From Candidatus Acidiferrales bacterium (GTDB lineage: Bacteria; Acidobacteriota; Terriglobia; Acidiferrales; UBA7541), in the NCBI GenBank assembly GCA_031296075.1, contig JARLGK010000208.1, positions 1 through 37,725 on the forward strand: 37,725 bases of DNA, written 5' to 3'. A program made the position numbers and the translations under genes. Below, in pieces: positions 7,906-13,176 of the stretch. Positions within the stretch are counted from its first letter, which is position 1, and the number at the start of each line of letters is the position of its first letter. Under the pieces are notes generated by a model. The model searched no databases. It was not told the origin of the DNA and saw only the letters and a program-made list of their open reading frames with translations.

Positions 7906-9166
7906 GCTCTGGCTGATCATCAAGCGCGAATACGTCACACGGGTTAAGACCAAGGGCTTTGTGATCGGCACGGTAATTGTGCCGCTCATCGGCATTGGCT
8001 TTACTCTCCTGATCGTGTTTCTGGTAAGTCACCAATCAAGGCAGAGTCTACGCCTGGTCATCGTGGACAACGCCGGAGGTCTCGCGCCGTCGGTCGCCGC
8101 CGGCCTGCAAACGAAGATGCCCGACGGAACGGCGCGGTTCAACGTCGTCGACTCAATCAACCGGCCAGCTTCGCTCGCCGCAGCGCAGGACGATTTGCGC
8201 GCCAAGATCAATTCGGGTGCGCTCGACGCATATCTCATGCTTCCCAGCGACCTCAGCCAACCTGTCGAGCTTCACACGAAGAATCCCGGAAATTTTTCGC
8301 TGCTCGGTCAGCTCTCCGCCGCCGTGAATCAAGCGGTGGTCGAGGCGTGGCTGCGCGCCCGCGGCATCCACGTGGACAACGTGCGGGAGCTCGTCCGCAG
8401 CGCCGACTTGCAGGTCATCAAGGTCAGCAAAACGGGCGAGTCGGTTGAAAAAGGCCAGACCATCGGCGTCGCCATCGCTCTTGTGATCCTGCTGTACACC
8501 ACGCTGCTGATGTACGGCATCATCACCATGCGCTCCGTGCTGGAAGAAAAGACCACGCGCACCATGGAGGTCCTGATCTCCGCCGTGACGCCTTCCGAGC
8601 TTCTCGCCGGGAAAATTCTCGGCGTGGCCGGAGTGGCTTTCACGCAATTCCTGATATGGACGGCGTCGCTCGCGTTGCTGGGTTCCTACGGAGCCGCGAT
8701 GGCCGCCATGGGCGGGGGAAGCTCGATCCTGTCGGCGCTACACGTTCCGGCCTCGCTGCTGCTCTGTGCGCTGGTGTATTTCTTCGGCGGATACTTTCTC
8801 TACTCCTCGATGTTTGCGGCCGTGGGCGCCGCCTGCTCGAACGAACAGGACGCCGCTCAGTTGCAATGGATCGCCATGGCGCCGCTGGTCTTCACCATGG
8901 TGATTTACAGCCTGGTTCTGAACGATCCGGCGTCGCGCGTTTCGATCGTTCTTTCGGAGATTCCGTTTTTCGCGCCGGTGCTGATGCCGCTGCGCGTATC
9001 ACTCCAGACTCCGCCGGCCTGGCAGCTTGCGCTTTCGATCACCTTGCTGTTTGTTTCGATCGGCGCGGTGATCTACGGTTCCGCGAAGGTCTACCGTGTC
9101 GGCATCCTGATGTACGGCAAACGCCCCACGCTCCCCGAACTCGTCCGCTGGCTCCGTTATTCCTAG
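7898..9166 (+). CDS. ABC-2 type transporter permease (NatB-like)
   Basis: Overlaps the ATPase ORF by 8 nt; IIKREYVTRVKTKGFVIGTVIVPL N-terminus; EEKTTRTMEVLISAVTPSELLAGKILG motif. Confidence 0.92.
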   Translation: MHKLWLIIKREYVTRVKTKGFVIGTVIVPLIGIGFTLLIVFLVSHQSRQSLRLVIVDNAGGLAPSVAAGLQTKMPDGTARFNVVDSINRPASLAAAQDDLRAKINSGALDAYLMLPSDLSQPVELHTKNPGNFSLLGQLSAAVNQAVVEAWLRARGIHVDNVRELVRSADLQVIKVSKTGESVEKGQTIGVAIALVILLYTTLLMYGIITMRSVLEEKTTRTMEVLISAVTPSELLAGKILGVAGVAFTQFLIWTASLALLGSYGAAMAAMGGGSSILSALHVPASLLLCALVYFFGGYFLYSSMFAAVGAACSNEQDAAQLQWIAMAPLVFTMVIYSLVLNDPASRVSIVLSEIPFFAPVLMPLRVSLQTPPAWQLALSITLLFVSIGAVIYGSAKVYRVGILMYGKRPTLPELVRWLRYS

Positions 9167-9205
9167 GCTGTCAGGCCCCGCTGTGCGAGGGGGGCCGAAC
9201 TGTGT

Positions 9206-9280
9206 CGATTAGAAATGGCCGCTACCCTTTGTTTTCAGTTGGAAACAGGCGTTTCTAATCGCCAATGTGTCGATTAGATT
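9206..9280. repeat. Short inverted/direct repeat cluster (cgattagaaa ... tttctaatcg ... gtgtcgattaga)
   Basis: 10-bp inverted arms at 9206-9215 and 9252-9261, plus a further direct copy at 9271. Confidence 0.5.
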
Positions 9281-9782
9281 TTGCGGCAGCACAGGGTACA
9301 GACGCGGGAAGACAGGCCGCGAGGAACGCCTTCGCCGATCCCGTTGACCTGCCATTCAATTTTCAAAGAGCGTCCAGCCCTCGTCAAGAGAGCGGTAACG
9401 CAGATACGACTTTCAGCGGGGCCAAAAAAGACCCCTACTCGCGCTAATTCACTTGGCGTTCGCTGTCTATTGTGGAAACGACGCAGGGATTCATTCCGCT
9501 TGTCAGGTCAACCCCCGCACCCTTCTAGAAAGACGAAGGACAGCGGCATTCTCAAAATGTCACGCATCGCTCGGATGGATAGTTCATAGGTTCGGTAGGG
9601 TGATGGCGGTCACAACTAACGGTGAGTGCTATCACCGTCGCGAAGTCGCCTTAAGGCGTAAGAACTACTCGAAGGTCGGATTCCATAAGTGTGAGGCAGG
9701 GAAGAGAACAAAGTCCCGGATCAATAGGACCCAATTCAAGCGCGGATAGTTTCATGCTTCGGCCTTCGAGGAGGAAACGGCG

Positions 9783-10454
9783 ATGAAAAGAAGCAAGGTA
9801 GTATCTCTCGCTCTTGGGCTCATCGTGTTCGCCGGAGTTGCGGTGATTCAAACCCAAGCCCAGACTTTCGAGAAGAAAACTGCGGTCACATTCAACCGAC
9901 CCGTGGCAGTGCCCGGATCAACCCTTCCTGCCGGGACTTACACGTTCACAATTCTCGATTCGTTCGGCTCGCGGAACATCGTGCAGATTTGGAACGAAGA
10001 CAAATCGAACCTGATCACCACGATTCTCGCGATTCCGAACTATCGGCTCAAACCCACTGGCGAAACGGTGATTGAGTTCAGCGAGCGGCCGGCAAACGCG
10101 CCACAGGCCGTGAAGGCATGGTTTTATCCGGGCCACGGCTACGGCATAGAGTTCGTCTATCCGAAAAAGGAAGCGATTCAGATCGCCGAGGCGGCGAATG
10201 AGGTTGTTCCCGCCGAAGCCGTCGAGCCCACTCCAAGCACGCTGAGGACAGTTCCTCTGATCGCAATCACTCCCCAAGAAACGGAAGTGGGCATTGCAGA
10301 GGCATTTCCACCCCCCGCCAAGACAGCGGAACCCGTTACGGTTGCCAAGGAATTGCCAAGGACGGCGAGCCTGACTCCGCTTATCGCGCTGCTGGGTTTC
10401 GTCAGCCTCCTCATGGGATTCGGCCTAAGGCGACTTGGATCAAAACCGGTGTAG
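9783..10454 (+). CDS. Secreted protein with C-terminal LPXTA-type sorting signal; putative sortase substrate
   Basis: Signal peptide MKRSKVVSLALGLIVFAGVAVIQTQAQ; C-terminus LPRTAS-LTPLIALLGFVSLLMGFGL-RRLGSK; strong RBS gaggaggaaacggcgATG. Confidence 0.8.
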   Translation: MKRSKVVSLALGLIVFAGVAVIQTQAQTFEKKTAVTFNRPVAVPGSTLPAGTYTFTILDSFGSRNIVQIWNEDKSNLITTILAIPNYRLKPTGETVIEFSERPANAPQAVKAWFYPGHGYGIEFVYPKKEAIQIAEAANEVVPAEAVEPTPSTLRTVPLIAITPQETEVGIAEAFPPPAKTAEPVTVAKELPRTASLTPLIALLGFVSLLMGFGLRRLGSKPV

Positions 10455-10535
10455 TGGAAACAATTCTCGCTGTGCCGCGGGGGACAGAAACCGACTCCCG
10501 CGGCACGGGGAGAGTTGCGAACGGCGGGAGCCGAT

Positions 10536-11522
10536 ATGTCTCGGTTGTTGACCCAATGCCTTGCCGGAACGGCAGTTATCGCCATGGTGTTTTCCATGGG
10601 ACACGCAGCTCATTCTCAGGTCGGCGCAAAGCCACCTCTCTCCCAAGGATCGAATCACCCGCCCATCCTTTCTTCCAATACGGAGCTGGTGGCGCTTCCG
10701 GTGAACGTAACTGACGCGCATGGCGATTTCGTCGCGGGTCTGACGGCCGGCAGTTTCCGTGTTTCTGAAAACGGGCAGATTCAAAATATCAGTTTCTTCG
10801 AGCAGGAAGACACTCCGGTGACCGTGGGTTTGATTGTCGATCATAGTGGCAGCATGGGACGCAAGCTTCGCGAAGTGGCTGCGGCGGTGCTTGCTTTCGC
10901 TCATTCAAGCAATCCTGAAGATGAAATGTTCGTCGTCGATTTCGATGACAGCGTGTCGGTCGAACTGCTTCATGGCAAGGCTTTCACCAGCGATGCACAG
11001 GAACTCGAGCAGGCTGTCACGGCCGTATCCGCCAGCGGTCAAACCGCGCTCTACGATGCAGTCGTTGAGGGATTCATTCACTCGAAGCTGGGCCAATGGA
11101 ATAAGAAGGCTTTGATCATCGTAAGCGACGGCGGTGATAACGTCAGTCGGAACCACTTCTCGGACGTTCTGGAAATGGCGCGAAGTTCTCGCGTGGTGAT
11201 CTACGCCATTGGGTTACTGAGCGAATCTGGCCGGGAAGAGAACCCGGGAATTCTTCGGCGGCTCTGCAGCGAGACCGGCGGAGTGGCCTTCTTTCCGCCC
11301 ATGGGCGCGTCCATTGAAAAAATATCAACGCAGATAGCGCGCGATCTGCGTAAGCAGTATATGCTGGGATATGTTCCGCCAAAGAGCTCCGATGGTGACT
11401 CTTTTCGGAAAATCGATGTGAAAGTGTCCGTTCCCGGCCGGGGTAAAGTTCGGGTTAGAAGCCGGACTGGATACTCTCCCGCGATACCTCCGCCGGTACA
11501 GTCCGGGAACAACGCGCCGTGA
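10536..11522 (+). CDS. VWA-domain secreted protein (acidobacterial VWFA-related type)
   Basis: Signal peptide-like N-terminus; NVTDAHGDFVAGLTAGSFRVSENGQIQNISFFEQEDTPVTVGLIVDHSGSMG contains MIDAS DxSxS; IVSDGGDNVS. Confidence 0.88.
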   Translation: MSRLLTQCLAGTAVIAMVFSMGHAAHSQVGAKPPLSQGSNHPPILSSNTELVALPVNVTDAHGDFVAGLTAGSFRVSENGQIQNISFFEQEDTPVTVGLIVDHSGSMGRKLREVAAAVLAFAHSSNPEDEMFVVDFDDSVSVELLHGKAFTSDAQELEQAVTAVSASGQTALYDAVVEGFIHSKLGQWNKKALIIVSDGGDNVSRNHFSDVLEMARSSRVVIYAIGLLSESGREENPGILRRLCSETGGVAFFPPMGASIEKISTQIARDLRKQYMLGYVPPKSSDGDSFRKIDVKVSVPGRGKVRVRSRTGYSPAIPPPVQSGNNAP

Positions 11523-12130
11523 CCGTCTTACGCCTATCAACGAGTGAATCGGGAGGATCTGTGCGCTGGATGGCGCGTTGGGCTTCTGGCTTGCTGCTGG
11601 TAGCCGGTGCCCTTGCTCTCGTATATGTCACCTACGTCCTTGTGAGCGCCCGATACTACCAGGTGATCGAGACGAGCAGACTCGAGCGAACGGTTGCCCA
11701 TCCGGAATCTGGGCTCGATTCGCGCGTTGTGACGGAAGGCGATGTGATTGGCGAAATCCAGGTTCCCCGCCTCAGGCTAAGTGCGATCGTGGTTCAAGGA
11801 GATTCAGACGACATTCTTCGCCGTGCGGTCGGCCACGTCCCGGAAACTGCATTGCCAGGACAATCCGGGAACGTAGCGCTCGCCGGACATCGCGATACTC
11901 TCTTTCGTCCGCTGCGCGATATCCGGGTGGGCGACACGATTACTTTGAGAACGTCCGTCGGCAATCACACGTACCAGGTGAATTCCACGGAAGTAGTGCC
12001 TCCCACCGACATAGTTGTACTTCAATCTCGGGGAATCAACGAGCTGACGTTGATTACCTGTTTTCCTTTTCACTTCATCGGCCATGCACCCAATCGTTTT
12101 ATCGTGCAGGCTCGCGAGGTGGGAGAGTAG
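11519..12130 (+). CDS. Class D-like sortase
   Basis: N-terminal TM helix; IGEIQVPRLRLSAIVVQG; catalytic LAGHRDT; TLITCFPF (TLxTC); conserved Arg in NRFIVQA; GTG start overlaps the VWA stop codon (GTGA). Confidence 0.9.
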   Translation: MTVLRLSTSESGGSVRWMARWASGLLLVAGALALVYVTYVLVSARYYQVIETSRLERTVAHPESGLDSRVVTEGDVIGEIQVPRLRLSAIVVQGDSDDILRRAVGHVPETALPGQSGNVALAGHRDTLFRPLRDIRVGDTITLRTSVGNHTYQVNSTEVVPPTDIVVLQSRGINELTLITCFPFHFIGHAPNRFIVQAREVGE

Positions 12131-12465
12131 GCAGCTAGCAGATTGTGAGAGGAATCAGGGGGAGTCAGGCGCACGCGGCCTCGAGAGATCCCTGCAAGTG
12201 ACCCATCTTCCGCTTCACATTCTCACGTCCATCCAAGAGTACTCCTGCGCGGCTCACAGCAGCGTTCATCTGAGCCATGCGTGACATTTTGAGGGTGCCG
12301 CAGCCCTTCGATTTTCCGGAAGGGTGCGGGAGGGAACGTTGCCCTTCACCGTTTCTCCTCCGGCTTCCAATTTTGGATCGGCCCAGACATGCTCGTTTCG
12401 ATCGATTTCAACCTGGCAATCTTCTCTTTTGGTTAGGGTGAGAAGGGATTCGTCGCTCTGCGTGG

Positions 12466-13176
12466 CTAGCCAGCGACATTGGTGCGTGAGCCGAAGAGAG
12501 CGGTGCCGAGGCGAATCTCGGTTGCGCCCTCTTCGATGGCGACTTCGAAATCGTGGCTCATGCCCATCGAAAGGGCGGGGAAGGGCCGACCGAGGCGGCG
12601 ACTCAGACCGTCCCGGAGCTGTCGCAGCTTCCGGAAGTAAGGACGGGCGCGCTCCGGATCGTCTGAATACGGTGGAATCGCGAGCAGGCCGCGCAATTCG
12701 AGGTGCGCTAGCGCTGGAAGATCTTCGGCAAGCGCCGATAATTCTGTCTCGGCGACGCCGCTCTTTGTCGCCTCGCCGCCGAGATGCACTTCGATCAATA
12801 CCGGCAGGCGTTTACCATATTCCGCGGCCGCTGAATCCAGCTTTTGGGCCAGCGCGAGGCTGTCCACGGAGTCCACGCGATCGAAGAGTTGCGCCGCGCG
12901 CCGCGATTTATTGCTTTGCAGCTGGCCGATCAGATGCCACGTTGCGTTTAGGTCCGCAATCTTGGGCTGCTTGGCCTCAAACTCTTGCACGCGGTTCTCG
13001 CCGAACTCGCACAGGCCCGCATCGTACGCGGCACGAATCGCCTCCGCCGGAAAAGTTTTTGAAACTGCAACCAGCGTGATCTCGTCCGCACGGCGCCCGG
13101 CGCGTTCAGCGGCGCGCGCAATTCGCTCACGAACGCGCGCGAGATTCGCCGCAACCGCACTCGTTTGTTCCGGCAT
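12466..13176 (-). CDS. YggS/PROSC family PLP-binding protein (PLP homeostasis)
   Basis: LVAVSKTFPAEAIRAAYDAGLCEFGENRVQE, WHLIGQLQSNKSR, LSMGMSHDFEVAIEEGATEIRLGTALFG; start at MPEQTS. Confidence 0.94.
   Translation of the reverse strand: MPEQTSAVAANLARVRERIARAAERAGRRADEITLVAVSKTFPAEAIRAAYDAGLCEFGENRVQEFEAKQPKIADLNATWHLIGQLQSNKSRRAAQLFDRVDSVDSLALAQKLDSAAAEYGKRLPVLIEVHLGGEATKSGVAETELSALAEDLPALAHLELRGLLAIPPYSDDPERARPYFRKLRQLRDGLSRRLGRPFPALSMGMSHDFEVAIEEGATEIRLGTALFGSRTNVAG

Follow-up and report, generated by a model that had tools for sequence, protein, structure and literature searches.

A putative one-enzyme, one-substrate sortase cassette conserved in diderm Acidobacteriota

Nearly all genomes of Acidobacteriota, soil bacteria with two membranes, that carry an LPxT[AG]S-type C-terminal tail also hold a sortase, an enzyme familiar above all from Gram-positives, and in the window (the whole 37,725-nucleotide stretch analysed here) the two are encoded in one compact cassette. 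Three plus-strand genes lie in a row: a substrate gene (9783-10454), a VWA gene (10536-11522) and a sortase gene (11519-12130), the last two sharing 4 nt between the VWA stop and the GTG start of the sortase. The window belongs to a 3.19-Mb MAG, 89% complete, whose nearest relatives are Acidobacteriota of the class Terriglobia. The preliminary description of this DNA had proposed three consecutive same-strand genes forming a dedicated sortase cassette in which the sorting motif is carried by a separate small protein and not by the VWA protein; the gene layout is as it stated, and the co-conservation of the genes and the constancy of the tail strongly support the cassette itself. That the sortase acts on this substrate we regard as very likely. 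We also favour, with less assurance, the fuller reading that the dedicated enzyme cleaves the substrate between Thr and Ala and fixes it to the meso-DAP peptidoglycan in the periplasm, the acceptor being the part that we infer.

A model of this potential one-enzyme, one-substrate sorting system in a diderm periplasm can be drawn as follows. The signal peptide would export the substrate and the C-terminal hydrophobic stretch would hold it in the inner membrane. In that membrane, too, a class D-type sortase would be anchored; it would cut LPRT-AS with Cys181, assisted by His124 and Arg193, and a thioacyl intermediate would form on the enzyme. The acceptor of the substrate would then be meso-diaminopimelic acid of lipid II or peptidoglycan, through its free amino group, and the product would be an abundant, peptidoglycan-bound periplasmic beta-domain protein. 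A hairpin behind the substrate gene would raise the substrate message relative to those of VWA and sortase further downstream, and the VWA protein, encoded in overlap with the sortase, would be accessory, probably as a metal-dependent binding partner of the anchored protein. Terriglobia have a diderm envelope with meso-DAP peptidoglycan.

The substrate is a secreted protein of 223 aa composed of a signal peptide, a predicted beta domain of ~110 aa, a Pro/Ala-rich linker and a sorting signal (10353-10451) in which LPRTAS (residues 191-196; 10353-10370) is followed by a hydrophobic stretch and the basic RRLGSKPV. The signal peptide and the C-terminal LPRTAS, hydrophobic stretch and RRLGSK tail that had been read on the first gene are thus present in the translation, and the protein has every element of an LPXTG-type signal (LPxT[AG], hydrophobic stretch and basic tail at the C-terminus). 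A tail profile of 75 sequences and 39 positions recognised one place in the window genome (E=3.9e-13), the next match being a 25-aa frame with partial profile coverage (E=0.28); the search for further LPxTA or LPxTG tails in this genome, suggested with the preliminary description, therefore returned a single tail. At E<=1, 63 of the 75 tails match PF00746 and 67 match TIGR01167, for which the window's own tail scores 15.0, just under the cutoff of 15.9. Among 109 distinct tails, chosen by a loose pattern that by construction limits the positions it conditions to the allowed letters, Pro and Thr never vary, the position after Thr holds Ala in 86 and Gly in 23, and Ser follows in 103. A Pro at +8, three residues past the Ser and outside the pattern requirement, is kept in 102 of them, and the residues ahead of the motif vary freely, as predicted from selection on a sorting signal. 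Seven substrate-family matches fall outside the tail pattern. A tail varying freely among orthologues had been named beforehand as an outcome that would speak against the cassette, and across these 109 sequences the tail turned out to be constant.

The rest of the substrate resembles little that has a name. Searched against protein families, it scored over no cutoff; its similarity to DUF2911 (PF11138; 16.7, under the gathering threshold of 27) recurs weakly in 15 of 29 relatives, with a best E of 8e-5. AlphaFold2 gave a pLDDT of 45.7 for the full protein and 57.0 for the beta domain alone, too low for use; Foldseek returned nothing at E<=0.001, and the domain profile had one match among PDB sequences, which was not significant (E=0.31). 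Untailed beta-domain homologues are common (39 examined) and occur also in genomes with no detected sortase. In two genera (codes g17 and g30; loci L112, L149 and L150) an untailed homologue adjoins the sortase, the tailed copies being encoded at other places in those genomes. Outside the class, both beta-domain proteins and proteins with no beta-domain match bear the tail, whose presence on proteins unlike the beta domain indicates that it is a modular signal and not mere part of one fold. In other acidobacterial classes, six loci (L221, L223, L226, L227, L232 and L233) encode secreted proteins without a match to the beta-domain profile that carry an LPxT[AG]S-type tail; a Pfam scan of four of these (L221, L226, L227 and L233) found no domain over cutoff.

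How specific is the association between tail and sortase? Of the 299 class genomes, a sortase is present in 109 and a tail (E<=1e-4) in 103: both occur in 98, a sortase only in 11, a tail only in five and neither in 185 (Fisher p=4e-59, a value that carries no phylogenetic correction and comes from a tail profile built partly from these same genomes). Several of the 11 tailless, sortase-positive genomes contain class GN-like systems or partial sortases, and the five with a tail and no detectable sortase include fragmented MAGs and one case in which the tail lies in a 64-aa ORF. A cleaner test than this within-class count is the co-occurrence outside the class, where the profile, built from class members only, was applied to the rest of the phylum. 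There, each of the 36 genomes with a tail also contains a sortase (p about 1e-32 to 1e-33); a further 13 genomes contain a sortase and no tail, and the tail was found in none of roughly 190-210 genomes lacking a sortase, this denominator being an estimate.

Linkage is equally evident at the level of the locus. Of 131 acidobacterial sortase loci that include flanks, 105 have a tagged-substrate homologue close to the sortase and on its strand, in the order substrate-VWA-sortase (type I) in 62, substrate-sortase in 27 and sortase-substrate in 16; the remaining loci comprise nine of class GN-like type, three with VWA and sortase genes and no substrate in view, and 14 others. The proposed test of gene co-conservation has hence been carried out with a positive result for substrate and sortase, the VWA gene standing between them in the 62 type I loci. 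Strings of the LPxTA kind are short and common in six-frame translation, and on that ground the cassette could be imagined as unrelated neighbours, one of which ends by accident in such a tail. The conservation data contradict this idea, to which we attach almost no credence: the tail profile singles out one place in the genome, adjacency recurs in the 105 loci across many families, every tail-bearing genome outside the class has a sortase, and the genes on either side of the whole cassette are neighbours in relatives.

These flanking genes are an ABC permease gene and yggS (window 9166-12466). In three genomes of the same genus (G044, G223 and G563; loci L253, L260 and L263) permease and yggS are nearly adjacent, 29 bp apart in L253, which indicates that the cassette occupies, as a unit, a site empty in these relatives; the sortase loci of G044 and G223 lie at other positions. 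The cassette is bracketed by a 64-nt inverted repeat of 84% identity, with its left arm at 9514-9577 (plus strand) and its right arm at 12267-12330 (minus strand), of which the assembly has only these two copies. We considered the arms as ends of a mobile unit; in relatives carrying the cassette, the repeat was not seen around it. A 22-nt direct repeat (TGTGTCGATTAGA...) also occurs upstream of the cassette, at 9201-9222 and 9266-9287, with an inverted partner between the copies.

The sortase is the only one in the window genome (as a MAG 89% complete) and has an N-terminal hydrophobic membrane anchor. Its LAGHRD, TLITC and downstream Arg, picked out from the letters at the outset, were all recovered as an intact His/Cys/Arg set: LAGHRDT with H124 (11888), TLITC with C181 (12059) and R193 (12095). 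It belongs to the peptidase C60 superfamily (Pfam PF04203, 103 bits, cutoff 26.6, E=1.1e-29). With respect to class, it scores 147.1 with the NCBIfam class D model NF058671, over the cutoff of 140, and 135.8 with the general class D model NF033746, below the cutoff of 165, while neither the class GN sortase model TIGR03784 (87.3, cutoff 158) nor the class C pilin sortase model NF033745 (77 bits, cutoff 160) is reached. Among PDB sequences it matches 2ln7 (E 1.6e-19) and 4d70 (E 1.9e-17) best, which we take to be class D sortases from B. anthracis and C. perfringens.

The class D systems of these two organisms are, by PDB sequence and by the NF058671 score, the closest known to the cassette. 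In the SrtC/BasI/BasH system of B. anthracis, SrtC cuts LPNTA between Thr and Ala with m-Dpm as the nucleophile (PMC3297441), and SrtD of C. perfringens prefers LPQTGS and has its gene clustered with that of an LPQTGS protein (PMC4498605). The cassette shares with them the Ala or Gly at P1′ followed by Ser and a substrate gene within the sortase operon (PMC3297441, PMC4498605), and it differs in its diderm, non-Firmicute hosts, in the VWA gene placed between substrate and sortase, and in a substrate whose beta domain belongs to no named Pfam family. By analogy with these precedents, the sortase of the cassette should cleave between Thr and Ala and attach its substrate to meso-DAP. The main rival to such anchoring is that the sortase merely removes the tail by hydrolysis, so that the protein leaves the inner membrane for the periplasm, or is released for export at a later stage, and is attached to nothing covalently. 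PEP-CTERM and GlyGly-CTERM are C-terminal tripartite signals of diderms that serve processing and export, and the acceptor is not a thing that can be read from sequence. Both points lend this reading some weight; we nonetheless hold it to be rather unlikely, as the nearest characterised enzymes (2ln7, 4d70) are of class D and the one from B. anthracis anchors its substrates to m-Dpm (PMC3297441).

What part does the VWA protein play? Its start is likely the ATG at 10536 (the ORF caller chose a TTG at 10515), and it is a member of the NCBIfam family TIGR03436 (189.4, cutoff 81.25), whose model makes no reference to sortases; a subset of this family sits in the sortase operon here. The secreted VWA protein with an intact MIDAS that had been described is borne out by this membership and by the presence of DHSGS (~10839-10853), and a strict MIDAS pattern occurs in 56 of 66 short VWA hits. 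The window protein is tailless, and an LPxT tail is absent from every short VWA protein scanned. The VWA gene is missing from 43 of the 105 sortase loci with a tagged substrate, and in one relative (L005) the VWA protein is recognisable over residues 5-138 only, with substrate and sortase intact. It is therefore not obligatory to sorting everywhere: the VWA protein is accessory and dispensable for the pairing of tail and sortase, and its role is probably that of a metal-dependent binding partner of the anchored protein. The adaptor or assembly partner suggested in the preliminary description is a role that it may have, though not one on which every locus depends. The same observations bear on the idea that a lysine or the N-terminus of the VWA protein attacks the acyl-enzyme, yielding a substrate-VWA conjugate. 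The 4-nt overlap of VWA and sortase genes, present in 41 of the 62 type I loci, implies tight co-production of the two proteins and would suit such a reaction, to which we give very little chance given the absent and the truncated VWA genes. In a further genome (G058; L007/L060) no substrate was found, the last 54 VWA residues are left and the sortase is frameshifted just after the catalytic Cys; this pattern fits a joint decay of the cassette, an assembly error in the MAG being also possible.

The cassette invites comparison with the class GN system of marine proteobacteria (TIGR03784/TIGR03788), which likewise has diderm hosts, a VWA gene directly upstream of the sortase and, often, the same 4-nt overlap between them. 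However, the VWA protein of class GN is ~700-800 aa long and bears its own C-terminal signal, whereas here a short tailless VWA protein accompanies a separate tagged protein. The window proteins do not belong to that system, defined by a TIGR03784 sortase and a tailed TIGR03788 VWA target, the VWA protein scoring 23 with the GN target model (cutoff 552). Class GN-like systems also occur in Acidobacteria, beyond the marine proteobacteria: these loci encode VWA proteins of ~700-740 aa with their own C-terminal signal, L075 and L078 have a class GN system over cutoff (in L075, 625 bits for the target against the cutoff of 552 and 171 for the sortase against 158), and in the sortase tree a branch with support 94 sets the GN-type loci apart from the rest. 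A GN-like sortase beside a long VWA protein with a GAPATGTAD-type tail was seen in nine loci (L064, L068, L075, L078, L079, L081, L084, L146 and L172).

Sortase-assembled pili (class C, with YPKN pilins) offer another comparison, since their components share with the cassette a signal peptide, a predicted beta domain ending in VYPK, a sorting signal and a VWA partner gene. VWA tip proteins are known from Gram-positive pili. On this pattern, the sortase would build a fibre, perhaps tipped by the VWA protein, by linking each subunit through its C-terminal Thr to the VYPK lysine (residue 128) of its neighbour. EFVYPK at the end of the beta domain indeed recalls the pilin motif YPKN (PMC3297441), and K128 is present in 76 of 88 tailed homologues (86%) and in 14 of 37 untailed ones (38%). 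These counts are striking, yet the tree holds only two well-supported independent contrasts, which leaves the association of lysine and tail inseparable from phylogeny, and other residues drop equally between tailed and untailed homologues. Moreover, 12 of the 88 tailed homologues lack K128, whereas a pilin lysine would be expected in every subunit, and FIYPK or FLYPK also occurs on untailed homologues in genomes with no detected sortase (G283). Unlike pili, the cassette has a single tailed protein, a VWA protein devoid of a sorting signal, and an enzyme that resembles class D more than class C. We thus judge polymerisation unlikely, and its most specific form, a minimal sortase-polymerised surface fibre in a diderm with LPxT-to-VYPK-lysine links and the VWA protein as an optional tip or receptor, slightly more so.

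A strong hairpin after the substrate gene is present in most loci, across all three gene orders, and is a new observation here. In the window it spans 10461-10517 (plus strand), 3′ of the substrate stop, with two 21-nt arms that are 86% complementary and no T-run, and it recurs at the same place in relatives. When the 110 nt after the substrate stop were folded and compared with dinucleotide shuffles, the mean z over the 62 type I loci was -2.6 (below -2 in 41); type II loci averaged -2.3 and type III loci -2.4. Control segments taken ahead of the substrate gene, behind the sortase gene and within both genes gave means of -0.1 to -0.7, or -0.1 to -0.6 when set against the type I loci. A stem of at least 10 pairs occurs in 51 of the 62 type I loci, only six of which have at least five T in the next ten bases, and this rarity of T-runs means that most of these hairpins are not typical intrinsic terminators. 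Segments with a strong hairpin after the substrate stop, mostly without a T-run, were seen among L047-L176 in all three gene orders. The hairpin likely raises the substrate message over that of the enzyme.

Reviews still treat anchoring by sortases as a feature of monoderms (PMC10501053), or describe sortase as unknown from phyla that are strictly diderm (PMC7203096); sortase genes of one acidobacterium are included in a COG count for Solibacter (PMC3174227). The literature that we searched, which did not extend to subscription sources, yielded no description of an acidobacterial sortase-substrate system. In one acidobacterial class, about one in three of the genomes sampled holds a sortase, as do further genomes across the phylum, mostly together with a signal that matches. 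Should the product be bound to peptidoglycan, as we favour, the cassette would represent a way of tethering proteins to the thin diderm wall other than the Braun-type lipoprotein linkage. With one enzyme and one substrate, the question of which acceptor a diderm sortase uses becomes directly testable.
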